This document shows, in pieces, positions 23,105 to 64,000 of a stretch of DNA of 64,000 bases; the first letter of the stretch is position 1; each line of letters begins with the position of its first letter. A program made the translations under genes and the position numbers. The notes beneath the pieces were generated by a model that saw only the letters and a list, made by a program, of their open reading frames with translations, was not told where the DNA came from and made no database searches. Source of the DNA: Aurantiochytrium sp. KH105 (lineage: Eukaryota; Sar; Bigyra; Thraustochytrida; Thraustochytriidae); assembly GCA_003116975.1 (NCBI GenBank), contig BGKB01000064.1, positions 186,001 to 250,000 of the forward strand, written 5' to 3'.

Positions 23105-25724
23105 CGTCCTTTGTCGTCCTTCTCTCCTGCTCGGTCGTTGTTGAGGTCAAGGTACTGGGTAAAGGCGTCCGTCCTCCGCGGGGACAGCAAGCTGGCCACC
23201 TCGCTCGCCGTCCTGCAGATGCTGGCAGCCTGCTGCAACGCTCCTGACTGACTGACCTGACTGACCTGACTACTCTTGCGCACAAAGCGCCGCGAAGACC
23301 TCTCGTTCCCGTCCAGCGAGCGGCCAGCCGCAGAAGAGTCCCGAAAGAGGTCCGTCCGCGTCGAAGCCTGCGCCCGGCCAGGCAGCTGGCCGGCGACCGG
23401 CCTCGCCGCGTGATCGTGTCTGCTGCTGCTTCCCTCTTGCTTGCCAAGTCCCGAGGGCGAGAAAGTTGGATTTTGTCTCCTCCTTCATCACAGCACAGCT
23501 GACTTTGACATGCGAGAGAGAGGGTTCATGGCATGTACGAAATGGATGCGTTATCGTGGGCGAGGCTGCTGCGCATAATCACTCATGAAGGCGCGTAGAG
23601 AGTCTTCACCACCCACATGGATGAGGCGAGGTTGAGAGCGCTGGCCAATGTGTTATCCATGTATCGCCGCCTACTACTACAGCCGCCACTGCCAGCCATA
23701 ACTGGCCAGCGGCCTCCTAGAAGATGAAGACTTGGTTGATGGCGAGGCTCTTCACTACGGCGCGGCGTTGCGCGGCGTCGCTGGCCAGCAAGGCAGGCAG
23801 GCGTCATGGCAGCCAGACATGCGTCGTCGCGATTTGGTTTCAACGCTACGACCTACGTGGTGCTGGTGTGGCTGGTGGCTGAAATGAACTGCTGGATGGT
23901 GGCTGGCAATTTGAGCCTCGTGTCGCCGAGAATGACTCTACTGATTTTGCGTGCGACGTGCTACGTAGTACTAGGCCTATACACGTATACTACGCACTAC
24001 ACGGGGCAGCATGCCTTTCATGTTCTTTATGCGAAAATGTAATGAGTAGAAAAGGCGTCCCAGCCAGGCTGTCCCGCCACCACCGCCGACCACGACTCCG
24101 GCGAGGACCACGAGATTTCCTTCATCTGGACCATTGGCCCTGCCACACGAATTTCACTGGTCGAACTCCTTCTCACTCACTCTCTCGCGCGCGCGTGGTC
24201 TACGTATGGACGTAGCAGCAGACGTATGCACGCGGTGCAGCTCGCAACACACGAAAACACACAGTCTCGACGCTCGCCGCCACTCGTCGAGGCTCGTCGA
24301 GACCCCGGTCGTGGGCCGAAGTCGCCGCCACGCCACCAGCGATGGTCCACGCGCTTTGCGCATCCCAATTGAAATGTAGCACCGGACCACGAGACATGTT
24401 TCATACATTGACGCTAAGGATGTCGATGAATCCGCTGGGCCCTGCATCCCCGACGGGGAGGAAGCGCGTCACTCTACACGATCCAGAAGCATTGTCGATA
24501 TTTAAGATTTATGATTGGCGGGGTCGCGTAGGAAGTGTCTCCGATTGCGAGCGCGGACCCTCAAAGCGACGGGCAGAGGTGGACTCCGAACTCTGGGCAG
24601 GCAGAAGCAAAGAAAGAAAGAAAGAAAGAGGTCTGGGCGAGAGTGAAGCCAACGAGAGCGGTCGCGACAAAAGGCTAACGAGCCGCGATCTGCCTGCCAC
24701 TTCGTCTCGAGCTTGGAACGGAAGCTGGCGATCGAGGACACTCAACCAATCAAGGCCGCGATTGCACGCGCATTCAGGGCGACTTCGAGTTCCACACATC
24801 TGGTTGAACTTGTTTGCTTTGCTTGGTGTCGACTGGCAAGTTCGAGCGTGAGGACGTACGCGTGGGCGCGGAGCTCTCGGGCACGAGACTGGACACTCTT
24901 CCGACAAATGCTGTCATCATCGCTGCCCACGACACTGCATTCCCCATCTCCAATATTCGTGGTGGAGTCTTCACAGCCGGGCAGGGCTTCAGCACTGGAC
25001 TGTGCTGCTCTTGACGCAAACGAGGTCGAAGCCGAGCTCGCGGGCATCTTTAGCGCGGACGTCGACGAAGAAGACTTTGTGGACCTAATGTGCCCTGCAC
25101 GTCCCAGCAATCCTTTGGCAAGAGTGCTGGATGAGCGCTCATGACGCACGCACATTGTCATGGACAAAGGGCGAGTTTCCATTCTACACTTCCCTTTTGA
25201 TAAATTATCGATGCCATTGGGTGCCGCGCGGGAAAACGTGGCGCTCGTGACATGAGAAGGAGGCGTGCGTGGGAGAGGGCTCCTGCCTGCCGCCTTTACT
25301 CTGCATTTTTTTTTAAAGTACAAGTATTAGAGCTTTCCAACTCAGTTACGGGCAGTCTAATTGCCATCAAATTCGGGGAGGGCTAGCTCCAGCTCGGTAT
25401 CGTTATAAACCATGTATCTCTGTGTGTGATGGTCTTTTCTTCTCATCAATTATTTCTTGTTTGCCTGTCTTCGATGAGATCTTGCAATTTTGGTCTGCGT
25501 CCTCTTCCCCTTTGATTGCGAGAACAAGAAAAGAAAAAAAAAATGATTTCTGTAGTTGAGTTTGTGTTTGCGTAAATCATATTGCTTGCCATGAATTTCG
25601 AATAGTGTGCGAGAAAAGCTGGCTGGCTGGAAAATTATGCATACGCGAGCCATTGTCTTTTCCCAGACATGGGACGCATGCTTTAGACGGCCCCTTTACA
25701 CCCGACACATGCGAAAGACAGCTC
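23105..25724. other. Gene-poor stretch, 2.6 kb
   Basis: Upstream region of the exchanger gene plus further spacer. It contains short GCTGGC/GGCCAG-rich sequence around 23640-23920, a (GAAA)n run at about 24608-24630, and one weak candidate ORF (24713-25144). No recognisable exon, tRNA or transposon signature was seen. Confidence 0.4.
24713..25144 (+). CDS. Doubtful small ORF with acidic C-terminus
   Basis: 143 codons; the first codon may not be the true start. Only the last third looks protein-like: ANEVEAELAGIFSADVDEED followed by FVDLMCPARP. Nothing in it is recognised. It could be the last exon of a spliced gene, or noise. Confidence 0.2.
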   Translation: MERKLAIEDTQPIKAAIARAFRATSSSTHLVELVCFAWCRLASSSVRTYAWARSSRARDWTLFRQMLSSSLPTTLHSPSPIFVVESSQPGRASALDCAALDANEVEAELAGIFSADVDEEDFVDLMCPARPSNPLARVLDERS

Positions 25725-26551
25725 TCACGGATGCGAAGCGACAGGGGTGGGGCCAGAAGTCTCCGGGACAGCCCGGTAAGCACCAGAAGGATCAAGCATT
25801 CCACCATGACCCATCTTGGCAGTAGATGCCATCGACTCGAGGTAGCGCTGGCGCTGAATGACCTGCAAGGCAACTTGCGCACGGGCTTTTTCGACCTCGG
25901 CATGAATGGCATCTGCAGAAACGCTGACCGCCGGAGCACGAGACGGCTGCTCCCGCTCGGCACCCGGTGCCAGCTTGCGCGGCTCCTGGCGATTCGGATG
26001 CGCAGAGTCGTATTCCTCGAGAGCAATGCCGGCCAGGGTCGCGAGCAGGCTCAGCACATTCTCCGTGCTCGGAGCCACCGCCGCAACCACGTTCTTAGCG
26101 CCGCCACCCGACGCTGCCGGCGTAGAAGCAGCAGTAGTCGCAGAAGAAGAAGACGACGACGACGACGAAGAGGACGAAGCGAGAGCAGAGGTCTCTCCCG
26201 TCGCCGTATCTGCATCAGATACAGAAGACGTCTGCGCCGGAGGCTTTTGCGAGGAGGACTGCGAACTCTGCGACGGCGTCGGCGACGGCGTCGATGAAGG
26301 TGGAACTGATGCAGTGCCACCCGATTGCTGGCGCTTCATCTTGCCCGACTTTGTCTGCGAGGCCCCTACGGAGGAGGATGCCTGCAGAGCAGCAGCGTCC
26401 TCGGGTACGCCATTGTTGTTACCTGGCGCAGAAGTAGAACGCGCGAGCGGTCGATCCGGCTTGGACATTGCTCCCTTGGGATGCAACTGCTCGAGCAATG
26501 TGAGGGCAGGCGCGGAATTCGCGGGCGCCTGAACCGCGGAAGAAGAGGCGG
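25725..26551 (-). CDS. Ser/Pro/Ala-rich protein of unknown function, cut by assembly gap
   Basis: C-terminal 275 codons of a minus-strand gene that enters the N-gap at 26552. Composition is Ser/Thr/Pro/Gln rich with a poly-Ser run. A more ordered helical segment SADAIHAEVEKARAQVALQV followed by IQRQRYLESM lies near the end. The C-terminus is GAYRAVPETSGPTPVASHP. Such composition is common in transcription regulators and RNA-binding scaffolds, but no domain is visible. The N-terminal part is unknown because of the gap. Sequence beyond the gap (27380 on) does not look like its coding start. Confidence 0.5.
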
Positions 26552-27379
26552 NNNNNNNNNNNNNNNNNNNNNNNNNNNNNNNNNNNNNNNNNNNNNNNNN
26601 NNNNNNNNNNNNNNNNNNNNNNNNNNNNNNNNNNNNNNNNNNNNNNNNNNNNNNNNNNNNNNNNNNNNNNNNNNNNNNNNNNNNNNNNNNNNNNNNNNNN
26701 NNNNNNNNNNNNNNNNNNNNNNNNNNNNNNNNNNNNNNNNNNNNNNNNNNNNNNNNNNNNNNNNNNNNNNNNNNNNNNNNNNNNNNNNNNNNNNNNNNNN
26801 NNNNNNNNNNNNNNNNNNNNNNNNNNNNNNNNNNNNNNNNNNNNNNNNNNNNNNNNNNNNNNNNNNNNNNNNNNNNNNNNNNNNNNNNNNNNNNNNNNNN
26901 NNNNNNNNNNNNNNNNNNNNNNNNNNNNNNNNNNNNNNNNNNNNNNNNNNNNNNNNNNNNNNNNNNNNNNNNNNNNNNNNNNNNNNNNNNNNNNNNNNNN
27001 NNNNNNNNNNNNNNNNNNNNNNNNNNNNNNNNNNNNNNNNNNNNNNNNNNNNNNNNNNNNNNNNNNNNNNNNNNNNNNNNNNNNNNNNNNNNNNNNNNNN
27101 NNNNNNNNNNNNNNNNNNNNNNNNNNNNNNNNNNNNNNNNNNNNNNNNNNNNNNNNNNNNNNNNNNNNNNNNNNNNNNNNNNNNNNNNNNNNNNNNNNNN
27201 NNNNNNNNNNNNNNNNNNNNNNNNNNNNNNNNNNNNNNNNNNNNNNNNNNNNNNNNNNNNNNNNNNNNNNNNNNNNNNNNNNNNNNNNNNNNNNNNNNNN
27301 NNNNNNNNNNNNNNNNNNNNNNNNNNNNNNNNNNNNNNNNNNNNNNNNNNNNNNNNNNNNNNNNNNNNNNNNNNNNNNN
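26552..27379. other. Assembly gap (828 N)
   Basis: Run of N. It is bordered on the right by a (GCCT)n repeat, which suggests that a repetitive or very G+C-rich tract stopped the assembly. Confidence 1.
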
Positions 27380-27406
27380 GCCTGCCTGCCTGCCTGCCTG
27401 CCTGCC
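27380..27406. repeat. (GCCT)n tetranucleotide repeat at gap edge
   Basis: About six GCCT units directly following the gap. The true length is unknown because the gap cuts it. Confidence 0.9.
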
Positions 27407-28296
27407 GGCGGGCGCCGAGGCCTCGCGCGCAACGTCGCTCGGGCGCTCCCGCTCGCCGTGCCTGCCGCTTTTGGTTTTCCCGTTTCCCGTTTTGAGTCAC
27501 CGCGCCCGCACGCCGCGGCGGCCCCTTGCGGCGCGCGGCGGCAACAGCGGCAACGGCGGCCGCAAGTGAAGAATGCCGCGCGCACACACACGCACACTGC
27601 CGCGGCGGAGCGACTGACTGACTGGCTGGCCGGGCAGGCCCGGTGGCGGAGCGAGCGAGGGGCGCAACACGCGCAAACCGCGGAAACCCGAGTGGCGCGC
27701 GCGCATTCGCCACTTGCGCGCGGCGGCCGTTGCAGTGTATCAGGGGCAGCCAGCCACTGGCCAGCCGCGGGTGGGTGGGTGGGTGGGTGGTGGAGGTCGA
27801 GAGCGACGAGGGAGGGAGGGCCTGCCCGGGTTGGTGGCTGCGGCTCGTGCATGAGGAACGGAGCTTGGGCAGGGGATATGGGATGTTTGGTGGCCGGGGA
27901 TGGGTCGTAAGGGGGGAGGGGAGGAAAGGATGTCATGTTAGCATCATGGTCGAAAGTACCCGAGAGGCCATTCGTTGCGCATGATGGCAGTGGCAAGGAT
28001 GACGACAATTTACAAATGCTGCTTCCCTTTGGTATTGTGGATTTGGGAAAGCAAAAAGAAAATCTCAGAGTTCGCCTCCTTTTTGGCTTTCACAGGCCCA
28101 AGCTCGAGCTCAGCTTCTCTTTCATTGGCCGCCGGAAGCTATGTCTCTTTTTCTTTTCACCTTTTCCTAGCTCTCTTGTGCTTGGAGGATGATGATCATG
28201 GTGATGAGAGGGATCCGAGGGATCATTGCTCTCGCTGCTGCTTCTTTGCGCTCGGTAGTGGGTTGAAGCTGTAGCAACGCACACAAAAATCGAAAA
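27407..28296. other. G+C-rich spacer before the accessory island
   Basis: Contains a short (GGGT)n run near 27770-27790 and a GA/G-rich stretch near 27900. Probably the promoter of the minus-strand Ser-rich gene. No coding sequence supported. Confidence 0.4.
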
Positions 28297-30788
28297 TTGA
28301 ACTTCGAAGGCTCTTGCTCTTGCTTCGTCTTCACATGCGAATTGTCTCAAGTCGACTACGAGAGCGAGGCTGTTCATTTCAAAAAGGAGGCGTTTGAGGA
28401 GGAGACAGTCGTCTTTTTCCTGCGCGCCATCAAGGAACTCCGCGACGAGGTACTCAGCGGAGAGGCCGCCCAAGGCGTTGAGCTGTATGTGGCCAAGCGC
28501 GACCTCTCGGACAAAGTCCAAGAAGGCGCCACCATCCAGGTCCTGCGCACGAAGCCCGATGGCAAGTTACAGGGCTTCGTGCCCTACGTCGGCAGACCCA
28601 TCACCTTTGAACCCGGAAAGGACGCCGATCCTAAGCTACGCCAAGACTGGAGCACAGAAGACGTTGCCGAGTACGTCGTTCTCGCCTTGACCAACAAATC
28701 TCCCCAGGCGCAGTTCTATCTCGATCATATCAACGAAGAGGACATTAGTCCAGACTTTCAAGGCACTTTCGTGAGCCAGGCGCGCAAGTGCCGCTTTCGG
28801 GACCTCGTCGCGGCGCTCGAGGACCATTTCGGCCAAGACGCCGACGCGGCCTTTGTCTGGCTCGACCTCTTTTGCGCGAACCAGCCTCTGCTGACCAGCG
28901 TAGACAAAGATCTGCCTCCAAAAGTGATTGCCGCACGGAACCAGTATCTGACGCACGGCTTGCACCGGGCAATTGGACGCTTCGGAAGCGCGGTCATCTT
29001 CTTTGACCGCTGGGACGTGCCGGCGCCGCTGCAACGGGCCTGGTGCGTATGGGAGATCATGGGCGCCATTGCGCAGGCGCAAAACTTCGAGGTCGTCATT
29101 ACGCCAGGACAAGGGCTTATTCTCGGCGCTCCACATCCCCGACCTGCGCTGGATCGCGGCCACCGAGGAGACCCTCCGGCGCATGAAGCCCATGCTCGAT
29201 CCCGACTTCCGCGCCGCCGAGGGTCTGCTGGGCTCCCGCGCCTACCGCGTCGCCGCCCGGGAGGAGTGGAATGCCACCCGGGCCTCATTCTCGCCACACG
29301 CGGGCGTCGCCGATGGACCGGACGTCGCTCTCCCCTCGCACCAGCGGACGCTCCAGCAGCTTTGCTCGCCCGACGAGGACGACGACATTCTCATCATGCC
29401 CGACCCGGACGCACACAACGCCGGGGACGTCTTCGACTTCCTCTGCATGCTGCGCGGGGGCTCGGAGTGGGCCCGGCCGCCCGGGCCCAGACAGGAGCGA
29501 GGAGCTGGCCGCGGTTATCCTGCACGTGACGGCGCTCTGCTCGCGGGGGCACGCGCCTGGTACGAGGTTCCTCGCGCGAGAGCTGCTCTTCCACCAGACC
29601 GACCCGCAGCGCCCCACCCCCTCGGGCGAAGTGCTAACGGCGGCGCTGCAGCGCACGCTGCGAGACGCGGAAGACTGGGCGCGAGACAACACGTGGCGCA
29701 ACGCGCCTCTGCCCTCATGGCTGGAGGCCCTCGACGCCTCGGGTCGCGCGCGGATACTCGCCGCCGTGCGCGACGCCGCCGCCTCCTGGCCCGCCCGCGG
29801 CGAAACCATCCTGCATGGCGCCGGCCGCGCGCCCTTGCTGCGTCGCCGGTGGAAGGAGCGGGTGCTGCCCGCGCCCGTGGCGCGCAGGGTGCCCGAGGCG
29901 GCCCTCGATATCCTCGCGGCGAGACCCGGCGATCGCGATCGCGCCCGCGTCTGCTTGACAGTGAATTTCATCTTACTCGAGAAAGAGCACCGCGTCCTCG
30001 ACGGAGACCTCGAGGCTTTATTCCGCAATAACTTTGCACCGCGGCACGAGGACGCGGGCATGGTCACGATGGCCATGTGCGAGGCCGCCGCCGGGCTCAA
30101 TAAACGCGCGTCGCGCGATTGGCTCGCGTTCGCCATCGGCGCGACGCGCGACGGCGTCTGGGACGACGAGGACAGGTACAAGGAGACCGCAGAGGCCGCT
30201 GCCGCGCTCCTCGGCCGACCGATATCCTACGGACTGACACAGGCGGTGACTGTCACGATCCGCTGCGCGCTGCCGGACGCCCGCCCGCCACAGCCCCTTC
30301 CGCCGCCCCGAGCGGCCGCCCCTCGCACCGGGTTCCCGACCGTGCAACAGGGCAGGGCTTTTGCCACGGCGGTGCAAAGCTTCGCGGCGGAGCACGCGAC
30401 CGTGGTCACGCTGGACGCCATACACCGCCGAAGTGAATGCTGCGAAAAGGGCGACGCGCTTTTGCTCGCGCACGCGGAACCCGATAACCCGTTGAGGATC
30501 GAGGACATTTGCGCCTCGCCGATCTCCCCCTCCCCGGATGAGACCCTCCGGCACTGGCCCTGCTTCGCCGTCGGCAGCGACAAGGCCCCGGAATTGGGCG
30601 TGCTCCTTGCCCACGGCCTCCTGGCATTTTGCGTCGAGTTCGGCATGCCGGGGGTCTGCCACCCGCTCACGGCGCTGGCAGCATGGGCGACGCGTGCCGA
30701 GGCCTGGGGCATCCCCGCGCGCGCACTGCTCGCCAATGACGCGATCCGGGAAAGCGCGCTACATGTGATCGCCGGCGCCCATACATGA
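28297..30788 (+). pseudogene. Broken gene: Crinkler-header-like start, stramenopile module, helical C-terminal part
   Basis: Coding signal runs through this span in more than one frame (about two breaks, which could be real or assembly errors), and no ATG opens the first part. First part: a stretch AVHFKKEAFEEETVVFFLRA followed by an AIKxE-like helix and LYVAKRD resembles the ubiquitin-like header of Crinkler proteins. Next, a module with FVSQARKCRFRDLVAALEDHF, AFVWLDLFCANQ and RAWCVWEIMG is of a type common in oomycete and dinoflagellate proteins (there usually F.SHAW.., W.D.F..NQ, RAWC.WE), often next to TPR repeats. The second half is helical, rich in Ala/Arg, and unrecognised. Another reading is two adjacent genes. 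The role is unknown. Confidence 0.45.
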
Positions 30789-30831
30789 CCAACGCGCCGC
30801 CGCACCATGAGCCAAGCGCAACATAGCCCCG

Positions 30832-31572
30832 ATGCAGCAGCATACCGACGAGGAGGACGAAGCCCCGCGCCGGAGCCTCTGCTCCGGCTTCATGCAATAC
30901 TTATTCCCCGACCCCGCAGGCGACGTGCAGGGGGAGCTGGAGCGCATCGACGCCACGCTCCGCCGCCTCCACGCCGAGGCCGCCAAGAACGAAGCCGCCA
31001 AGCGCACCCTGCGCGACTCTCTCCGGCGCCTCCGGGACCCCAAGACGCGGTTCGACGACGAGAGCATGACGCGCGACGCCGCCAACACCTCTTACAATCT
31101 GCGACTCGTCGGCCACCTGCGGGCCTCCAATGTGCTGGTGCAGCAGATCAAGTTCTTCGAGCGCACACGCGCCACGCTCCTCAACTCGCAGCTGGCGGAG
31201 CAAATGGCCGCCAATATCTCGGACCTGCGCGCGCGGGCCGGGACCCTCCGCATCGCCAACCCGGAGCAGCTCGCGCAGGAATTGTCTGAGATCGAGGACG
31301 TCAACGCCGACATGCGGGAGCTCAACGACCACATGGCCGACGCCATGCAGGTGAGCTCCTTCGCCGGCGTTGATTCGCACGAAGACGCGCGTCTCCTGGC
31401 CGAGTTCATGGCCGAGGTCGAGGAGGAGGGCGAGACGGAAGACGTCGCACAAGAACCCCCCCGCGCGCAGCACCGAGCAGCCGCCCCCAAGAACGCCCGC
31501 GTCCCGGAGACACGCGCCACAGCCCGCCACGAACCCGCAGGCGAGGAACCCGTTGGCATGCACGTGTACTAG
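30832..31572 (+). CDS. ESCRT-III (Snf7/CHMP4-like) protein
   Basis: ESCRT-III subunits polymerise into membrane-remodelling filaments that drive budding and scission. Seen: 246 aa. Hydrophobic start (CSGFMQYLFPDP) like the membrane-inserting N-terminus of Snf7. Basic helical hairpin about residues 30-110 (GELERIDATLRRLHAEAAKN; YNLRLVGHLRASN). Then the conserved-type stretch ELSEIEDVNADMRELNDHMA and an acidic helix DARLLAEFMAEVEEEGE like the autoinhibitory/MIM C-terminal segment of CHMP4. The Ala/Arg/Pro-rich tail is unusual. It starts 43 bp after the preceding gene. Homology is judged by pattern and order of helices; identity to host Snf7 is low by eye. It looks whole. Confidence 0.65.
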   Translation: MQQHTDEEDEAPRRSLCSGFMQYLFPDPAGDVQGELERIDATLRRLHAEAAKNEAAKRTLRDSLRRLRDPKTRFDDESMTRDAANTSYNLRLVGHLRASNVLVQQIKFFERTRATLLNSQLAEQMAANISDLRARAGTLRIANPEQLAQELSEIEDVNADMRELNDHMADAMQVSSFAGVDSHEDARLLAEFMAEVEEEGETEDVAQEPPRAQHRAAAPKNARVPETRATARHEPAGEEPVGMHVY

Positions 31573-39954: not shown

Positions 39955-40039
39955 CCTCTTTTTCTTGTTGCGTTATCCGCCCGACGCGGGCCGTGCCGCA
40001 TGTATGCTGGGGAGGGGGTTGATCCGCGAGCCCCCCCAC

Positions 40040-40379
40040 TCACCCCAGCAGGTGCAGCTGGCTCAGCGGGAAGCGCCCGCGCCGGACGCTTTCGGCGATG
40101 CAGGGGTCGAGGCGAGCGGCAAGTGCCAGGCGGCGCACAGCGCCCCGCAGCACTGCTGGCGGCGGCGGCTCGTTGCGCGTACACACGCCGGACGAGGTCA
40201 GCGAGGCGCAGGTGCCGCACGAGCATCTCCAGACGCGCAGGATCGTCCCACAGGTAGTGACTCAGCAAAAAGTTGCAGCGCTCGTCGTCGAAGAATGCGG
40301 GCAGCGCCTCCAGAAAGCGCTCGTAGACTCCCTCGTCGTCCTCGACGCGCGCCAATGCCAGCCCTCCCCCCTCACGCAT
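40040..40379 (-). pseudogene. Small island gene, apparently with one break
   Basis: About 110 codons on the minus strand with protein-like composition (VYERFLEALPAFFDDERCNF in the first part; AESVRRGRFPLSQLHLLG in the last). The reading frame appears interrupted once; a sequencing error is equally possible. Unrecognised. Confidence 0.3.
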
Positions 40380-40574
40380 CGCATCGGAAGCGGCGACCAT
40401 CCCAACCTGACCGTGCCGAAAACTGCCAATCCCCCCCCCCCTCAGTCGCCACACGCTGACGCGCGCAGTGCACACGTATATGGGAATTTCGCATAAGAGG
40501 GGCGAAAAGGGGGCAGCAACCGACGGGAGCACGGCCCTAGCTCGCACGACCGCCCCTTCTCGTACTGCAGAAAA

Positions 40575-41858
40575 ATGGCCCCGCCGCGACCGCTGCTGCG
40601 TCTCACGGCGCTCGCCGCGACGCTGGCGCTGGCAGCCGCCGCGCGGTCGTGCGGAACACACCTCGCGGCGGATCTCTCTGCGCGCAACCGCTTCATCGCC
40701 AGCGCGGACGAAGCCTGCATCTACGAGATGGACGAAGCCGCCGTCGCCGGCAAGGTCTGCATCGATACACCCAGCGGCGCGACGCCCACACACGCCGTGC
40801 TCAACGACAGAGTCGCCTTTCTTCTGCTCGAACGCGACGACGGGTCGTCCCAGGTGGTCGCCTACAACGAGCAGGAGGATGGCAGTTACGCCGAGGGCGC
40901 AGTGGCCTGGGAGACGGAGGGCAGCCGCGAGGCGAGCATGGCACTGGCCGAGACTCTCCTCGTCGTCATCGGAGACCAGTCCGGCGACTGCGTCGTTCGC
41001 GCGATCCCCTACAACAGCAGCGACGGCGGGACCGACGCGGCCGCGGACATCATCCTCGCGGAGAACAGCACGTGCGGGGAGGCGTCGATGGGCGTCGCCG
41101 TCGACGTCGACGGCACCGCCATCCTCGCGCTCGACGGCGCGGCCGGCAACGAAAGCGCCGCCTTCGTGCTCAGCCGCGTCGACGAGCTCGACTGGGAGCT
41201 CGGCGGATACTACTACTACGACCAGGACGAGGCCAGCGTGCTGCACGCCGAAGTGCTGTCCCCGGAGCTGTTCGCGCTGGCAGAGGAGGATGCCCTGAGC
41301 GTCCTGGCTCCCGCAAACCGGACCCAGCAGCAGCAACCGGAGGCCCTGCAGGTGGAGGCGACCGTCGACCTCGAAGAAGCGCCCACCTTCCTCGCCGCCG
41401 CCGACGACGGGACCCTGGTGCTCTGCGGGAGCGACACCTGCTCGCGCTACGAGCTCGCGGCGGGCGCCCTCGCCGCCTCCAGCGCCTTCGCGCCCGCGGG
41501 CGGCCTCGGCTGCAGCGCCGCCTACAAGCGCCAGGGCTCATTCTTCGTCGCAATCACGGCCGCCGGCGACGAGATCTTCTTCGAGGACGCCGCCGGCGCC
41601 CAGGCGACCATCCCCGCCCCGTCGGCGACCACCGCGCCCACCACCGCGGAGCCCACTCCCGCGCCCACCCCGGCGGCGGAGCCGGCCATCAAGCCGAGGC
41701 GGGATGCCGGGCCCTCTGCCCTCGTATGGACGCTGACCTGCGCCGCCGCGGCAGCCCTCGTCGCGCTGCTTCTCGTTTTCGCATGGCACCGGCGCCAGCG
41801 CTACCAGCAGCACCAAAAGGTCTCCACCGTGGAGCTGGCGGCCCAGCGGGCATATTGA
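40575..41858 (+). CDS. Type I membrane (glyco)protein of the island
   Basis: 427 aa, looks whole. Cleavable-type signal peptide MAPPRPLLRLTALAATLALA followed by AAARSCG. The ectodomain of about 320 residues has four N-x-S/T sites (for example NSSDG, ENSTCG, ANRTQ) and several Cys residues that could pair. Acidic, beta-rich sequence pattern. Then a Thr/Pro/Ala stalk (TTAPTTAEPTPAPTPAAEP), one membrane segment ALVWTLTCAAAAALVALLLV, and a short basic tail (HRRQRYQQHQ) ending QRAY. Receptor-like or envelope-like topology; no family recognised. A 561-codon open frame on the opposite strand here is not protein-like. Confidence 0.6.
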   Translation: MAPPRPLLRLTALAATLALAAAARSCGTHLAADLSARNRFIASADEACIYEMDEAAVAGKVCIDTPSGATPTHAVLNDRVAFLLLERDDGSSQVVAYNEQEDGSYAEGAVAWETEGSREASMALAETLLVVIGDQSGDCVVRAIPYNSSDGGTDAAADIILAENSTCGEASMGVAVDVDGTAILALDGAAGNESAAFVLSRVDELDWELGGYYYYDQDEASVLHAEVLSPELFALAEEDALSVLAPANRTQQQQPEALQVEATVDLEEAPTFLAAADDGTLVLCGSDTCSRYELAAGALAASSAFAPAGGLGCSAAYKRQGSFFVAITAAGDEIFFEDAAGAQATIPAPSATTAPTTAEPTPAPTPAAEPAIKPRRDAGPSALVWTLTCAAAAALVALLLVFAWHRRQRYQQHQKVSTVELAAQRAY

Positions 41859-41994
41859 GCGCGACTCGCCCGCGCAGCGCGCTCATCGTCCACCATCATC
41901 CCGCCGGCAGTCATAAATGCAAATCGGTAAAAAAAGTTCGTGAGAGCCCCTTCCGCCTTCAATCGCCACACGCGGGAGGAGGAGAGGTGGCACC

Positions 41995-44716
41995 ATGCCC
42001 AGCTTTTTCGGAATCAGCAAGAGCCGAGCGCCGCCGGCCACTGCGCCATTTCAGATCCTAACGAAAAATGAGGCCGTCGCCAAGCAAGCCATCCACTGCC
42101 TCGACTGGATCATTGTCATCACGACGATTATCGCGACCAGCCCAAGGGCGATCGCCGCGGGTCCGGTTGGCGTCGGCTGCGAAAGTGCCCTCGCCGAGCA
42201 CATGACTACCCTGAATAAGCTCAAAAACAAGGCGCGTGGCATCGACAAGGAGCTGCAGTTGACGGTTGCCACTGATGCTTCATTTCGCGACAGCCTGCGG
42301 ATGCGAAAGAAGTCGGTGACAAAGTCCGCCCGTCGCGCATCGCAATCGCAATCCAACTTCTTCGGGTTGCGTAAGGACGCGAAAAAGGCCGACGAGCTTG
42401 TCGACAACGCGCTCGCAGCAGTCCTCGCAGCACAGGAGGCCAAGGCGTCCTCGTCGCCTTTTTACAGGGTGAAGACGCGGATGATGGCAGTAGCGCTGTA
42501 AAATTGCTGAAGAACGTGTTGCAGTACTGCGAACAGGCGTATGAAGCCGCAAGGGCCGTGCGCAATATTTTCAACAACGAGTCCAAAACATTCGCAAAGG
42601 GGGATTTGAGGCCGACACAGCGCGTTGCCCATGCCATCGCCGTGGCTAGGGACGCACAAGATCTGCGGCGGAGTATCAACAGCATCGGCCCCGGCGCGCA
42701 GGAAATTTACCGTGAGATCATGACCAAGGAATCAGACACAGTTAAGCTTACTAAGCTAGACATCCCGGGTGCACTGACTCGACTCTCTGACATCGGGACC
42801 GCGCTCGCAACTCTCCCATACCATTTGTATCTGAGCGAGGTCGGTGCAAAACTCCTTAAAGCGGAGAAGGTCGCGCTCGAACGGCTCCAAAAACTGACTT
42901 TCTCAAGCCTTAAGGCGGATGCGTCGAGTAATGTGAAAATCAGCCAGCTGGGCCGCTCGTTTGACGCCGAGCGCCTCTTCAAGTACGTGCACACGAAGCA
43001 GACGGGCCTCATAATGGCCGAACAATTCAAAAGCAAGGACGTGCTTGAGCTGATTCGGTGGAATGAACAGGATATCAAGACGCATTCCGCCCTGTCCAGC
43101 AGCGCCGCCGCCGCCGCGACGCACTTTCTAACGGTTGGCACCGCAATGGACGTTGCGCTGCTTCACGATAAAAGCCGCAAACCCCTGGAGGAGATTCTTC
43201 GCCGAGATACTAAATTCGAGTCCGAGGACGAGGTCAAAGACGCCTTTGACCAGGTGGAGGAAATTTTACACGGCAACGATCACAAGTCAGGTCTCGTGAA
43301 TCATTTCAACAATATCCTCGAATTCAATGTAGAGACCAATGAGAGCAGGCTTTTGTCCAGGCACTGCTTGAGAATGTAAACGGATTGGCCAAGATCATGG
43401 CCGATAACAACAACATGCGCAATGCAGAGTTCTGGAAGAAAGAAGACAAGGAGATGATTGACAACGCAATCGAAGCGACCGTGGAAGGTGGCTATGTGAC
43501 ACTGATCAAAGAGGTCAATCGACGCGTGCACGCATGGCGGCTGAAAATGGCGCGAGATGTAGTATTGGAAGCTCGGAGTGGTGATGGCGATGCTCTTGAG
43601 CTTGCTAAGATTCTTTTGTCCACTGGTTTGCTATTGAACAGCCAGGGCGAGTACATTAAACCTTTGCAGATGCTCGAGGAAGCGCTGTCGATTCGCAAGG
43701 AAAGTCTTGGCGACCGGCATCCCGATGTGGCTCAAACGCTCCACAACATCGCCAATGTGTACCATTCACAAGGCAGCTACAAGGAGGCCTTGGCGTACTA
43801 CAAGGAAACGCTGTCGATGCGCAAGAAAAGTCTTGGCGACCGGCATTCCGATGTGGCGAGCACGCTCATTGGCATCGCCAATGTGTATGGCGATCAAGGC
43901 CGTTACGAGAAGGCCTTGGCGGTCTACGAGGAAGCGCTGTCGATAAAGAAGACAAGTCGTGGCGAGCGGCATCCCGATGCGGCGGACACGCTCAACAACA
44001 TCGCCATTGTGTACAGAGCACAAGGCCGCTACGAGGAGGCCTTGGCGTTTTACGAGGAAGCACTGTCGATTCGCAAGGAAAAACTTGGCAACCGGCACCC
44101 CGATGTGGCGAGCACGCTTACCGGCATCGCCAATGTGTATTATTCACAAGGCCGCTACGAGGAGGCCTTGGCGTACTATGAGGAAGCGCTGTCGATTCGC
44201 AAGGAAAGTCTTGGCGACCGGCATCTCGATGTGGCTCAAACGCTCAACAACATCGCTAATGTGTACTATTCACAAGGCCGCTACGAGGAGGCCTTGGCGT
44301 ACAACGAGGAAGCGCTGTCGATTCACAAGGAAAGTCTTGGCGACCGGCATCCCTCAGTGGCGACCACGCTCAACAACATCGCCGCCGTGTACCAACAACA
44401 AAGCCGCTACGAGGAGGCCTTGGCGTACTACGAGGAAGCGCTGTCGATTCGCATAGAAAGTCTTGGCGACCGGCATCCCGATGTGGCTCAAACGCTCAAC
44501 AACATCGCCATTGTGTATGAAAGACAAGGCCGCTACGAGGAGGCCTTGGCGTACTACGAGGAAGCGCTGTCGATTCGCAAGGAAAGACTTGGCGACCGGC
44601 ATTTCTTGGTGGCGAAAACGCAAAGGAATATCGAACGCACTCGCAGAACGATTCGGGCAAAGACAGAGCGTCGATCTTCGCTGCAAAAACTTGCATTCGT
44701 CAGTGGTAGAAAGTAA
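41995..44716 (+). pseudogene. TPR (kinesin-light-chain-type) repeat protein, reading frame interrupted
   Basis: Tetratricopeptide scaffold. The first part begins MPSFFGISKSRAPPATAPFQ, has one hydrophobic stretch (WIIVITTIIATSPRAIAA) and a long helical region. The second part is helical (LPYHLYLSEVGAKLLKAEKV). The last part carries about eight 42-residue TPR units of the kinesin-light-chain type (RYEEALAYYEEALSIRKES, LGDRHPDVAQTLNNIANVYY), which are very alike in DNA. Coding signal occupies successive frames with about two breaks, real or from assembly. It is probably a host accessory gene at the island edge and not part of a viral core. TPR partners unknown. Confidence 0.5.
43671..44600 (+). 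repeat. 126-bp tandem repeats coding TPR units
   Basis: About seven units of 126 bp with almost identical cores (GAGGAGGCCTTGGCGTACTA; AAGTCTTGGCGACCGGCATC). The high likeness points to recent expansion or conversion. Confidence 0.9.
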
Positions 44717-58714: not shown

Positions 58715-59321
58715 CTTCCCGCTTGCGTCCGCGCCCCCGCGTTGGCGACGCTCGCCTCTGCAGCTCGCGCGCAGCCTCGCGAGACGGTTTTTGCCGCGAG
58801 GCCAAACTCGATGATTCCCGTCGCCCGCCGCCACGAAGGTCTCCGAGCGCTGTCTCCGTCGGGCAAGCGGGGGCAGGGCGAGCGAGCGAGCAAGGGCCGC
58901 TCGCGCAGAGGCTTCGCTGGCGCGCACGAGGCCTGAGCGCGCGCAGGCCGTCTGCGAGTTCGGGTCTGTGCGCAAGGCGCCGGCCAGAAACAACCAAGGC
59001 GAGGCAGCAAGCAAGCCCGTGCCCGCCAAACGCAGAACCAAGCTCGCTCGGCGCCTCTCCGACGCTCGCCCTCGCCTGGCGCCTGATCGCGCGCAGCTCG
59101 ACGTAGCGCGGGCGCGGACGCTTGCGCTGCTGCAGAGGCCTCGAGCGAGCGAGCGAGCGCGCGCGCGCCTTGCGGACGAGGACGGGGACGAGGAGAAGGA
59201 CCCGACCGATAGCGTCTCGAGTTCACAGCAACCAGTCGTCGACTTGAAGGTCTCTGCACGCGCGCGGCAGAGCGCGACGAGCAGCGAGCGAACAAGCGAG
59301 CAAGCGAGCGAGCAAGGGGGG
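58715..59321. promoter_or_regulatory. Shared upstream region of Fn3 membrane protein and TTL-family genes
   Basis: 607 bp between divergent ATGs, rich in CTCGC/GCGAG words. A GCGAGCAAGCGAGCGAGCAA repeat precedes the TTL start. Long open frames on both strands are compositional. Confidence 0.4.
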
Positions 59322-60794
59322 ATGGAGAAGAACAACGGCGGCGAGGACATGGCGCTCAGCGCAGATGCCATGTCCGCGCTGCAGGATTTCCTCGGCGAAA
59401 ACGGGGGTGACGGCGACGAGCTCGCGGCCATGCTCATGTTCAGGCGCCAAAATGACTCGGATTCGGACTCGGACGATGACGAAGAAGAGGAAGAAGAAGG
59501 CGAGAAAATTGACCACGCAGCATACTACAGGGAAAGGTTTCCCGAACGCTATGGCCTTGAAGCCGCAGCAACGGCGGCTAGCGGTGAGCAGACCACTGTA
59601 AGCCAGCCGTCGAGGCGAGAAGACCCTGTTGCGCTCGTAACACTCGAAGATGACTACGTGCAAGATTTGCTGTTGTCTGCATTTGAGTCGAGGCCACATT
59701 GGCGCGTCTCAACAGCGGTCCCTGACGAGGATGCCGGGCCAGATGCCGAGGTCCCCTTTGACTTGCACTGGGGCGAATACGAGCACTTGCAATGGTTTGG
59801 AAAGCAATTTTTAAGTGGACGCTCCCTCGTGAGCTGCTACTACAATCGCAAAGGTCTCATTCGCAAGGGCCACTTGGCATACATTTTGGAAAAGTGGCGA
59901 GCCAAACACACAGACCGGCTGCCGCTGGCGCCCAAGTCGTACATTCTTACCCTCGATGCCGAGGCTTCGGGCGAGGACCCCTTGGAGGCCATTGTACAGC
60001 GGGCCGTGGAGAAATCGGGATTCCCAGGATTCGAAGGCAAACCATGGATTCTCAAACCAAGCGTCACAAATCAAGCTAACGGTATCGCCGTGATCGACTC
60101 CGGTGATGGACTTAACACGGTCATGGAGAAGGCCGACGAGATGCAGCGCGCCGGAGACTTTGTATTGCAGGACTACCTGCCGCCTCTCCTTCTCGATAGG
60201 CGCAAGTTCCATCTGCGCGTTTTCATGCTCCTGAACGGAAATCTGACCGCGTACGTGTCGCCCGAGTTTTTGGCCATCTTTTCTCTCGAGCCGTATGAGA
60301 ACGCGCCCCTTGAGCACACGCGCGCACACTTGACCAACATTGCGCATCAAGAGGTACTGTCAGAGGATGATCAGCACCGATGCATGCGTCTCTTTGAGGA
60401 AACGATTCCGGACATGGTTGCATGCGGCGCAGTAAAGGACGAAGAGGAGGGCAGGGCTCGCTTCGAAGCTGTGCGGAAACGCGTTTTCGACATGTGCGCC
60501 GAGCTCGTCGAGGCGGTATCCTCGGAGCTCACCTTTCAGCCTCGTGCCAATTGTTTCGAGCTCTTTGGGCTTGACTTTATGATTGACCCAGACTGGCACG
60601 TCTGGCTTTTGGAGGCCAATGCCGAGCCTGATCTCAGCAAGGCCGGCGACCGGCTGCAGCCCGTCATTGACGGCATTCTTCGCGATACGCTGTCCATTGT
60701 TGTTGATCGCGACCCGCGCTTTGCTGTCGTCGACGCGGAGCCCGCACCCGTCAAGCTGCACAAGGTCTTTGAGCGCGCGCCGCGACCCTTTTGA
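59322..60794 (+). CDS. Tubulin-tyrosine-ligase-like (TTL domain) protein
   Basis: TTL-fold ATP-grasp ligases add amino acids to protein C-termini or side chains, often tubulin. Seen: 490 aa from MEKNNGGEDMALSADAMSAL. The acidic N-terminus (DSDSDSDDDEEEEEEGE) is followed by the TTL domain at about residues 125-470, with PWILKPSVTNQANGIAV (ATP-grasp Lys), FVLQDYLPPLLLDRRKFHLR, TAYVSPEFLAIFS, the LTNIAHQ segment and FELFGLDFMIDPDWHVWLLE with NAEPDLS (metal and ATP ligands). All core residues appear intact. The compact single-domain form resembles the Pby1/plant-type branch more than animal polyglutamylases, so tubulin as substrate is not certain. Followed head-to-tail by the PH-domain gene. Confidence 0.82.
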   Translation: MEKNNGGEDMALSADAMSALQDFLGENGGDGDELAAMLMFRRQNDSDSDSDDDEEEEEEGEKIDHAAYYRERFPERYGLEAAATAASGEQTTVSQPSRREDPVALVTLEDDYVQDLLLSAFESRPHWRVSTAVPDEDAGPDAEVPFDLHWGEYEHLQWFGKQFLSGRSLVSCYYNRKGLIRKGHLAYILEKWRAKHTDRLPLAPKSYILTLDAEASGEDPLEAIVQRAVEKSGFPGFEGKPWILKPSVTNQANGIAVIDSGDGLNTVMEKADEMQRAGDFVLQDYLPPLLLDRRKFHLRVFMLLNGNLTAYVSPEFLAIFSLEPYENAPLEHTRAHLTNIAHQEVLSEDDQHRCMRLFEETIPDMVACGAVKDEEEGRARFEAVRKRVFDMCAELVEAVSSELTFQPRANCFELFGLDFMIDPDWHVWLLEANAEPDLSKAGDRLQPVIDGILRDTLSIVVDRDPRFAVVDAEPAPVKLHKVFERAPRPF

Positions 60795-60977
60795 TCGAGT
60801 GACTGATTGATTGATGATTTTTCTCCCTCTTCTTGTCCTCCACTACTCGGCGCATTATTCGACGACCGGATTGACTTCTCACGAGGCAAAAACCAAACAA
60901 GAGCGAATCGGACACAGTGCACGCGGAGAGCTCGCGTTTTGCCCTGCACCGGCGGCCCCTTTCCCGCCTCGCCAAGA

Positions 60978-61502
60978 ATGCTCGCGCCCGAAGACGCGCA
61001 GCGCTTGCCGGACGCGCTGCCCGAGGATGGGCACAATGGCAAGTCGGGTATCCTCATGAAGCGCGGGCTCCGATACCAGAGCGTGCCGTGCTTTGGGACG
61101 GAATTCAAGCGCAGGTACGTGGTGCTGCGCGGCAAGTATATGTACAGGTTCAAGTCGGAGAACCACAAGCGTGTCAAAGGTGTTCCTTTGGACCTCGAAG
61201 AGTTCCAGCTCGAGGTGGCGGACTATGAAGTGGACGATGACGGCGAGGTCTTGCCATTTGCCTTCAAGTTGTCTTCGGTCCGTAAAGTTTATCTTTTTGC
61301 AGCATCTTCGGCTCGCGAGCGCCAGGAGTGGCTGCAAGCCTTGGCTGCGGCGCGCAGCCATGCGATCAAGCAACGCCTCGGACATGCAGAGCGTCAAGCA
61401 TGGGAAACCCGGAACAACAATCTAGGCGCATCTCTGCAGCGACAGCATGACCGCATGAGAGATTTGCAGCGCCAAGAGGATCAGGCGAGACTTGCCTTTT
61501 GA
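60978..61502 (+). CDS. Small PH-domain protein
   Basis: 174 aa from MLAPEDAQRL. One pleckstrin-homology domain at about residues 25-130: KSGILMKRG start, RRYVVLRGKYMYRFKSE central strands, and the C-terminal helix with its invariant Trp in SSARERQEWLQALAAARSHA. Such domains bind phosphoinositides or proteins and bring the host protein to membranes. A charged helical tail follows (RDLQRQEDQARLAF). It lies 183 bp after the TTL gene on the same strand and is convergent with the LRR-NEL gene (103 bp). No other domain. Confidence 0.85.
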   Translation: MLAPEDAQRLPDALPEDGHNGKSGILMKRGLRYQSVPCFGTEFKRRYVVLRGKYMYRFKSENHKRVKGVPLDLEEFQLEVADYEVDDDGEVLPFAFKLSSVRKVYLFAASSARERQEWLQALAAARSHAIKQRLGHAERQAWETRNNNLGASLQRQHDRMRDLQRQEDQARLAF

Positions 61503-61605: not shown

Positions 61606-63231
61606 TCACTCACATGTCGCGTGATCGTTGACACGGCGCAGGGCATTCTCAAAATTTTCGACAGACCGCGCCATGTTGGAAAAGTCGCGACCTGTGGCTA
61701 CCCAATGCTCAATCATGTCATCCAACTCAAAAGGGGCCTGCGCGGCGTCAACAAAGCAGGCAGGATGGCGGGCCAAGTCGCCATAGAGATCATATACTTG
61801 AGACACCTCGACATCACTCATTGGGGAAAGGGATGCCCACTCGATCAAAGCACTCGCCTCGTATCGGTCTTGTCGCTGCCACTCATCCCATCCTGAAAAC
61901 CAGGCCTGGATGTCCGCGTCCGATGCACGTAGAGCGGCTTCCTTAGCGTCGCGAAAATCCGCTTCTGGTACACTGACGAGTGACGGGTAGAGCATCTGCG
62001 TTGCGGAAACAGGCAAGTCGAGGTCTTCACGTAGCGCAATCTCGAATCGCAGATACACCTCCACGTCCTCTCCAGCGCGAGTAGCCACGGCAGCGCGCTG
62101 AGCAATGCGCTGCGCATGTTCATGAACAATGCCAAGTCGCATGATTCGGATTCCTAGCGCGCGAAGCGCTTCACGGTCCCCACGCGCGTGAGCAATGTGA
62201 TGCCATACCACAATCTGATTTAAGGCCCACACAATCATGTCTCCGCATGTATCGATGCTGCTTGCTATCTGGACAAGCAGCTGCGGCCGACTCAATTCAT
62301 CGTCGACGATAAGTTCTAGGGCCTCCCAAGCACGCTGCGCAAGTGCTGGACGTAATGCCTCAACTCGAAACTCTTTGGTACTGCGAAGCTTGTGCAAGAA
62401 ACGAGTGAGGGCACCCAAGTCTGCTGAATCGTTGATGGTGTTTTCAAGACCATGAGCAAGCACAGTGGAAGGCCCGCTTGGTTTTACGTCACCCATATCT
62501 CTCTTCACATTGTCTGGCAACGCGATCCACCAAAAGTTCACCGCGTCGGCAAGACTTGCAAAAGGTTCGGGTTCTTGGAAAGAGAGAAAGATTCGCAGTG
62601 CCGGATGCGCGAGGCCTCGGAGACGCTCAGCTTCCTCTTCGTCGACTCCGGTGTCGCGTAGTCGCACATCGCCTCTCGACTCGATCATCGAAAGCGGCAA
62701 GCTTGTGACCGCGGCACAGTTCTCGATGATGATGTCGCCATCGACACTGACTCCGTCGGGGAGAGTTTGCAAGACTTCACAGCGCAAGAGGTAGAGGTCG
62801 CGGTGAACACGTAGATATTGAGGAAGTGAGACGAGGGTGCAAAGCTCGTCGAGCATCAAGAGACCCTCGATCTCCATGGCGGACGGAAGCGTGTCAAGTC
62901 TTGGCAGGCGCTCGAGCTGCAAATCTCCTTTGAGGAGCAGGGTTTCGGGAAGCTCTCGAAAAGAGGTGCAGTCCGCAATGCGTAGACTTTGCGTGATCAG
63001 ATCTGCTGGCAAGTCGACCAAGAGTGGCAAATTGCACAGCTCGAGCTCACACAGCACTTGAAGCTGGCTTGGAAGCGAAGCAAGGCTCACCAGTCCATCC
63101 ACACGTAGGTTCCGTGCGACCATTGCGGTTGTTAGTTCTGCTTCGCCTCTCTGTTCATATTGAGCGTACTTTTCCTCCGTGTCTTCCTCTTCAAGTGCTC
63201 CACGATTGTCGCGTACGAGCACGTCTTGCAT
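61606..63231 (-). CDS. LRR protein with NEL (IpaH/SspH-type) E3 ubiquitin-ligase domain
   Basis: NEL domains are single-Cys E3 ligases known mainly from bacterial effectors (Shigella IpaH, Salmonella SspH/SlrP), where N-terminal LRRs choose the substrate. Seen: 541 aa. About six bacterial-style LP-type LRRs at residues 42-195 (LRELPETLLLKGDLQLERLP; LVSLPQYLRVHRDLYLLRC). NEL at about 215-480: LTRFLHKLRSTKEFR; catalytic Cys329-Gly-Asp331 in SSIDTCGDM (CxD motif); LGIRIMRLGIVHEHAQ; EDVEVYLRFEIALREDLDL; WFSGWDEWQRQ. A C-terminal extension of about 60 residues follows. The start at 63231 is tentative because the frame is open further upstream. No secretion signal. It lies among host genes next to RAD50. 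The domain call is by pattern from memory of the family. Confidence 0.82.
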   Translation of the reverse strand: MQDVLVRDNRGALEEEDTEEKYAQYEQRGEAELTTAMVARNLRVDGLVSLASLPSQLQVLCELELCNLPLLVDLPADLITQSLRIADCTSFRELPETLLLKGDLQLERLPRLDTLPSAMEIEGLLMLDELCTLVSLPQYLRVHRDLYLLRCEVLQTLPDGVSVDGDIIIENCAAVTSLPLSMIESRGDVRLRDTGVDEEEAERLRGLAHPALRIFLSFQEPEPFASLADAVNFWWIALPDNVKRDMGDVKPSGPSTVLAHGLENTINDSADLGALTRFLHKLRSTKEFRVEALRPALAQRAWEALELIVDDELSRPQLLVQIASSIDTCGDMIVWALNQIVVWHHIAHARGDREALRALGIRIMRLGIVHEHAQRIAQRAAVATRAGEDVEVYLRFEIALREDLDLPVSATQMLYPSLVSVPEADFRDAKEAALRASDADIQAWFSGWDEWQRQDRYEASALIEWASLSPMSDVEVSQVYDLYGDLARHPACFVDAAQAPFELDDMIEHWVATGRDFSNMARSVENFENALRRVNDHATCE

Positions 63232-63765
63232 CTCTGGCGTCCTCCCCGTTGTCCTCGTCGTCGTCGAGGGCGCCGTCCCTCTTTGCGATGATCGTCCTCG
63301 AAGAAGCCACATTCTCACTCTCTGGCCTTGTCCGCAACGCGTGGTGCGCGCACGGCACGTCACGTCTCGCGGAGCTTCGCAGCCCAGCGTCGCCCCTCCG
63401 CCGGGCCGGGGCCGCGTCCGTCTCGTTCGCCGTCTTCTGCGAAATCTCGCGAGCCGGAAAACGCGTTCCGCCAAAACGGGTTCTGCAAATACTACGTTCA
63501 AAACGTAGAGTGGAGTAGATAGAGTAGAATAGAGTATAGCGCCGGAAGTGGGTTTTCCGACTTGCGGGCGGGGATAGCCGACTTGACGCGCCCACCTAAC
63601 CACCGGCGTATCCTCCGCCGCGTTCTTGGCTGCTCGCAGTCGCTGCTCCTGCGACGAGTCGAGCAGAAGAAGAACCGCGCGTACGTGCCGCGCGTGCGTG
63701 CGAGCGCGGGCTGGGCAGGGCGGGGCGGCGCACCGCGGCGCGGCGCGGGGGAGGAGGAGGAGAAC
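63232..63765. promoter_or_regulatory. Shared upstream region of LRR-NEL and RAD50 genes
   Basis: 534 bp between divergent ATGs. It contains a short AGTAGATAGAGTAGAATAGAG repeat-like stretch near 63512-63535. No other gene seen. Confidence 0.4.
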
Positions 63766-64000
63766 ATGGAGGCGGAAGACAGCGCCAACACGTCGGCGCC
63801 CCGCGGCGCGACGCTGTCGCGATTAGCGATCCGTGGGGTTCGCAGCTTTGGCCCCGACGAGGAGCAGGTGATCCGCTTCGACAAGCCGCTGACGGTGATC
63901 TCGGGGCAGAATGGCGCCGGCAAGACGACGGTCTTGGAGTGCCTCAAGTATGCCACGACGGGCCAGCTTCCTCCTGGAGCGAACAATGGACAGGGATTTG
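63766..64000 (+). CDS. RAD50: RAD50, N-terminal part
   Basis: RAD50 is the SMC-like ATPase of the MRE11-RAD50-NBS1 complex in double-strand-break repair and telomere upkeep. Seen: 78 codons to the window edge. After a short leader of about 17 residues comes the family start LSRLAIRGVRSFGPDEEQVI, then FDKPLTVISGQNGAGKTT with the Walker A motif GQNGAGKTT, and VLECLKYATTGQLPPGA, the RAD50 hallmark after Walker A. No signal for an intron in this part. Divergent from the LRR-NEL gene. Confidence 0.92.
   Translation, partial: MEAEDSANTSAPRGATLSRLAIRGVRSFGPDEEQVIRFDKPLTVISGQNGAGKTTVLECLKYATTGQLPPGANNGQGF

Follow-up and report, generated by a model that had tools for sequence, protein, structure and literature searches.

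The 64,000-nucleotide stretch of contig BGKB01000064.1 from the thraustochytrid Aurantiochytrium sp. KH105 (hereafter the window) carries near its end a gene for a protein with a NEL ubiquitin ligase domain. This gene occupies positions 61606..63312 of the minus strand as a single open frame of 568 codons plus a stop codon. Its true start is likely the in-frame ATG at 63312 (MWLL...), because a 47%-identical relative (P0003) starts with MWLF..., and the extent originally given (61606..63231, 541 amino acids) would begin 27 codons too late. In the shorter reading, a Pfam scan detected NEL (PF14496) at residues 267–453 with 95.3 bits (E = 4.6e-27; cut-off 24), and in the 568-residue protein the catalytic core lies at residues 294–480 (61873..62433, minus strand; 95.1 bits). 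The catalytic CxD motif, found in the translation and in the family alignment, is C356-G357-D358 (62239..62247, minus strand), which in the 541-residue numbering corresponds to C329 and D331 (SIDTCGDMIVWA). Both the EVYL and the W..W blocks line up with the family alignment, and the latter (W475..W478; 61879..61890, minus strand) is the final part shared with bacterial NELs when aligned with Pseudomonas sequences.

N-terminal to the core, LP-type leucine-rich repeats (LRRs) cover approximately residues 64–219 (62656..63123, minus strand). They were assigned because of their LP spacing of 20–21 residues and a fold match, seen in the strands of the model and in the IpaH and SspH1 LRR folds among the structural hits; no LRR family was found in this protein by Pfam, in which NEL is the sole domain. 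An AlphaFold2 model (27 rows) had a mean predicted local distance difference test score of 82.5 and a predicted template modelling score of 0.59, and NEL ligases filled rows 1–7 of its Foldseek matches in PDB (E = 3.9e-11 to 1.1e-6), with a large overall root mean square deviation of 12–19. The LRR part superposes on the LRRs of SspH1 and IpaH at approximately 3 Å, and hormone-receptor LRRs fit equally well. When PDB sequences were searched with phmmer, IpaH9.8 was the top match (E = 1.2e-11), aligned over query residues 41–454, which extend from the LRRs as far as the W..W block. That this eukaryotic chromosome encodes a genuine NEL domain is therefore confirmed, and both the profile search and the structural comparison that had been proposed as checks support the original prediction of LP-type LRRs followed by a NEL domain with the CxD pair and the two conserved blocks. 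Its claim that the match extends along the whole length does not hold, as the last ~60 residues are unlike bacterial NELs.

The assembly (GCA_003116975.1; 76 Mb, 367 contigs) contains 32 places with a NEL match above the cut-off, which rules out a lone gene; 26 of them were read in detail. They were interpreted as about 16 genes in two haplotypes, 10 pairs of which were codon-aligned and six inferred from scores and places. Codon alignment of the 10 allele pairs, in frames that take in some upstream sequence, gave synonymous divergence (dS) of 0.05–0.15 and ratios of nonsynonymous to synonymous divergence (dN/dS) of 0.11–0.44, and the NEL family is under purifying selection in all 10 pairs. 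Over NEL and tail, the window gene shares 29–41% identity with the 15 other representatives. Of the 16 frames that represent the genes, seven reach the edge of the locus, which leaves their N-termini incomplete. Among the 13 representatives whose domain architecture was scanned, NEL was found in every one, with SPRY added in L011 (58 bits) and L024 (48 bits; cut-off 26). In L015, an Armadillo-type stretch stays below threshold (18.5 bits, cut-off 20.6) and no LRR was matched in the same scan, and the L015 relatives P0004, P0014 and P0017 have precomputed Armadillo calls. Pfam LRR families were detected in some paralogues only, and other LP repeats were read by eye and from their spacing. Two of the 16 genes (L009 and L013) encode N-terminal segments hydrophobic enough to span a membrane, and their products are possibly membrane-bound NEL ligases. 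As to genomic arrangement, both haplotypes have two oppositely oriented NEL genes separated by approximately 4 kb (G000:C31:323992-329179 and G000:C93:135042-140343), and L013 and L014 represent a NEL gene within the first 1.7 kb of both haplotype contigs (G000:C4 and C55), in the first 600 bases of which no TTAGGG-type array was detected.

The catalytic pair of residues is well preserved in these genes: CxD was kept in all 26 genome places read and is also present in 30 of 30 proteins collected (P0001–P0030; 26 by pattern and four by eye). Such conservation bears on the possibility that the proteins are dead or non-ligase scaffolds whose NEL core has been retained as a platform for binding. 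In favor of a scaffold, the ligase activity of the family is a prediction from sequence and models, the catalytic block of the window gene reads CGDMIVWAL as compared with CxDKPIWAL in most family genes, and the window gene has Glu at the position of IpaH9.8 Asp397 (phmmer alignment, with numbering worked out in this analysis), where the paralogues mostly have Asp; this residue is described as the second catalytic-site acid (PMC9320238). Considering that the Cys and Asp of CxD are invariant in all copies read and that dN/dS is well under 1, we regard loss of ligase function across the family as quite improbable.

After the W..W block, the protist sequences diverge from bacterial NELs into a conserved module of approximately 60 residues, with a pattern of roughly G....DPV..(n)..WSL.DLL.HWV.TG.D..N...S. 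In the window protein, this U-box-like module spans residues 506–562 (61627..61797, minus strand), as delimited by the family alignment, the fold of the L026 tail and profile comparison. It was recognized in all 56 rows (26 frames and 30 proteins, with the window gene in both), 51 by pattern and five by eye. As described in PMC12506513, residues 623–697 of SspH1, which follow the catalytic region, form a helical thumb that binds E2-ubiquitin, and the same part of the Pseudomonas rows also looks helical by eye. When the predicted fold of the tail of paralogue L026 was searched with Foldseek, the U-boxes of Prp19 and E4B ranked at the top and 21 of 50 rows named a U-box protein (best probability 0.99). 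Furthermore, a profile of the tail scored 24.2 against the organism's own U-boxes, a value reached by none of 400 and none of 200 decoys, as compared with 13.1 for the bacterial thumb profile against the U-box and 10.5 against the protist tail (decoy level). In a viral fold library, the tail matched only weakly (best E = 0.49), and RING or U-box proteins made up several of the rows. The protist tail is thus predicted to have a U-box-like fold, and such a module appears to have replaced the bacterial tail in these NELs, suggesting that the enzyme was redesigned in a eukaryote. The original prediction had described a whole copy of a NEL ligase; what was found instead is one of about 16 genes in which the bacterial thumb is absent and a predicted U-box-like module stands in its place.

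Based on these observations, the explanation that we favor, and consider reasonably probable, is an endogenous and expanded thraustochytrid family of cysteine-dependent ubiquitin ligases that combine a NEL core with a putative E2-docking, U-box-like tail. The order of modules read from the sequences is substrate-type modules (LP repeats, and SPRY or Armadillo-type modules in some members), a NEL core with intact CxD and the C-terminal module. The window protein itself is probably an endogenous ligase, as had been proposed, judging from purifying selection and the intact CxD. Several features weigh against this explanation and lend weight to a competing one, in which the NEL ligase is endogenous as well but the tail is a degenerate structural cap without E2 binding, and the core or some other surface recruits E2-ubiquitin. 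Pfam detected the U-box (PF04564) in none of the 16 tails and not in the window protein, the Foldseek E-values for the tail are weak (0.026 at best), and the window gene is atypical within the family in the catalytic block and the tail alike, its DPV being changed to HPA. The tails of L017 and L027 are degenerate. At the positions that we take to be the E2 contacts of the U-box, the loop-2 proline is mostly replaced in the tails; most rows have a hydrophobic residue seven positions ahead of the DPV-type motif, with the wrong PV taken by the script in several rows. Against a mere cap stands the presence of the module in 56 of 56 rows, at the very site where bacterial NELs bind E2-ubiquitin, and we consider the cap unlikely.

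If the U-box-like tail does dock E2, the conjugate of E2 and ubiquitin would bind to this module, ubiquitin would then move to C356 of the NEL core, and D358 would assist its transfer to a substrate lysine, in keeping with the roles of the CxD residues described in PMC9320238. The LRR, SPRY or Armadillo part would select the substrate, and the LRRs may hold the core in check until a substrate binds, as in bacterial NELs. As a guess, the substrates might be own or invader proteins recognized by the repeat arrays.

The genomic setting is relevant to whether the gene belongs to the host at all. It is flanked by a PH-domain gene (60807..61502, plus strand; PF00169, E = 3.3e-11), beyond which lies a gene for a tubulin-tyrosine-ligase family protein (58968..60794, plus strand; PF03133, E = 1.8e-39), and on the other side by a divergent RAD50-type gene, whose N-terminal part (63562..63999, plus strand) ends at the window edge. 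The AAA_23 match of this fragment (PF13476, E = 6.7e-20) fits the RAD50 neighbor reported earlier, while the name itself is not proven. The guanine-plus-cytosine (GC) content of the NEL gene is similar to that of its surroundings, in agreement with the host-like base composition claimed for it. Recent injection of a bacterial gene, bacterial contamination or a chimeric assembly would be in line with the designation of NEL as a bacterial domain in a review (PMC9320238); these were ruled out because two haplotypes carry the gene, a 98% identical Hondaea protein is encoded on a 1.1-Mb contig, the neighbors are eukaryotic, GC matches the surroundings and the family is spread over many large contigs, leaving such an origin a negligible chance. 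Elsewhere in the window, positions 25001–28000 have a GC content of 0.39–0.43 as compared with ~0.55 around them, and stretches of 0.70 adjoin (29001–31000 and 40001–42000); this low-GC segment is possibly an insertion.

The closest protein to the window gene, and an answer to the question of its presence in related thraustochytrids, is FCC1311_016312 of Hondaea fermentalgiana, encoded on the 1.1-Mb contig, with 98% identity across 93% of the query. When the NEL part served as query, four proteins were returned for the window gene and 26 for L022, 29 distinct ones including FCC1311_016312, all of which have a precomputed NEL call; the searches with the window gene scored only the candidates with most words in common. 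Seven relatives are named Hondaea, some under automatically assigned names ('Disease resistance protein TAO1', for instance), and P0021 is a product from a transcript set. Two records are unusual. P0004, filed under Durusdinium trenchii, contains a PDCD5-type domain (PF01984) besides Armadillo, NEL and the U-box-like tail, so that either dinoflagellates have NEL or the record is contaminated. P0029 (Hondaea; seen with L009) is named tubulin and is a NEL protein fused to tubulin (PF00091) in the gene model, where two adjacent genes were probably merged.

No bacterial proteins were returned by the NEL-part protein searches, for which the word filter may be responsible. When a collection of 84,980 prokaryotic species was scanned for two conserved patterns, 85 stretches matched and five loci were confirmed, all of them from Pseudomonas and 23–26% identical, and NEL was found in nine of 398 genomes drawn from the phylum of Pseudomonas, the center genome included. 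It was found in none of 14 control genomes, which are apparently prokaryotes (U-box also 0/14) and hence uninformative on eukaryotes. Many of the NEL matches in bacteria belong to very long frames (~1,300–2,400 amino acids), unlike the short LRR-NEL effectors, and some bacterial genomes hold three to seven of them. A viral carrier was rejected, as seven pattern matches in viral contigs yielded no confirmed locus.

An unrooted phylogeny with bacterial NELs was built from 49 rows and 204 columns of the NEL core, with five closely related Pseudomonas rows as the only bacteria; P0024, which has CxD but whose motif escaped the pattern used, was left out. A distance of 8.3 changes per column lies between the Pseudomonas rows and the 44 rows of eukaryotic type. 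The window gene forms a starred clade with P0002 and P0003, and seven of the 16 own genes (the window gene, L013, L015, L022, L024, L033 and L034) have a starred non-Hondaea partner, which places those duplications before the split from the partners' species; judged from these partners, the NEL duplications are old. Of the inner branches, 46 in all, 20 carry a star and 15 are open, and many end branches are long, so that the order of the deep branches is uncertain and neither the direction nor the age of transfer can be read from the tree. Thus, the phylogeny sets the Pseudomonas rows apart, and the old transfer from bacteria put forward in the original prediction is not borne out by it. As a NEL domain would have little use without ubiquitin, a eukaryotic origin is conceivable: a eukaryote of this kind may have given rise to the domain, with bacteria acquiring it later and exchanging the U-box for the thumb. 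With a protist family at hand, the origin of NEL as a bacterial weapon or a borrowed eukaryotic enzyme becomes testable.

The NEL domain in Hondaea is already flagged automatically by databases. In the literature covered, to which subscription journals mostly did not belong, no eukaryotic NEL ligase family or NEL/U-box combination was found apart from a claim in PMC7145615, and the passages considered from PMC7029713, PMC11354881, PMC12221091, PMC9320238 and PMC12506513 do not describe an endogenous eukaryotic NEL ligase. Papers describe the NEL type as an injected bacterial weapon, a picture that is altered by a eukaryotic multigene family under purifying selection. If true, the fusion of a NEL core with a U-box-like docking module would add a new architecture to the E3 ligases and lend itself to comparisons of how E2 loads NEL enzymes.

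Compared to known systems, the protist protein shares LP-type LRRs, the NEL core fold and CxD with the bacterial NEL ligases (IpaH, SspH1/2 and SlrP; PF14496). Bacterial members of the IpaH/SspH type are type III-secreted and have a helical E2-ubiquitin thumb, whereas the protist NELs form a chromosomal multigene family in a eukaryote, have a predicted U-box-like tail instead and in some paralogues carry SPRY or Armadillo-type modules; as they lack the thumb, they are classified as a variant that shares the NEL core, outside the bacterial type. An earlier eukaryotic NEL-like sequence is the LRR-type domain (ODAL, SSF52075) of Klebsormidium NLR proteins, called homologous to NEL in PMC7145615, without mention of a catalytic core in the passages considered. 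With the U-box ligases (Prp19, UBE4A/B and Ufd2; PF04564), the protist tail has in common a predicted fold and remote profile similarity, whereas it falls below Pfam detection, is changed at the loop-2 position and is joined to a catalytic-cysteine domain. RBR ligases combine RING-type E2 docking with a separate catalytic cysteine. Their catalytic domain is unrelated, and RING and IBR families were absent from the Pfam scans of the window proteins and the 13 representatives; the proteins are not RBR ligases, and by analogy their proposed logic would be RBR-like, with a RING-type docking site and a catalytic-cysteine domain made from other parts. More tentatively, and with somewhat less than even chances in our estimate, thraustochytrids might run a separate E3 class of U-box-docked NELs in which the RBR principle was invented independently and the repeats of about 16 paralogues serve as a recognition repertoire.
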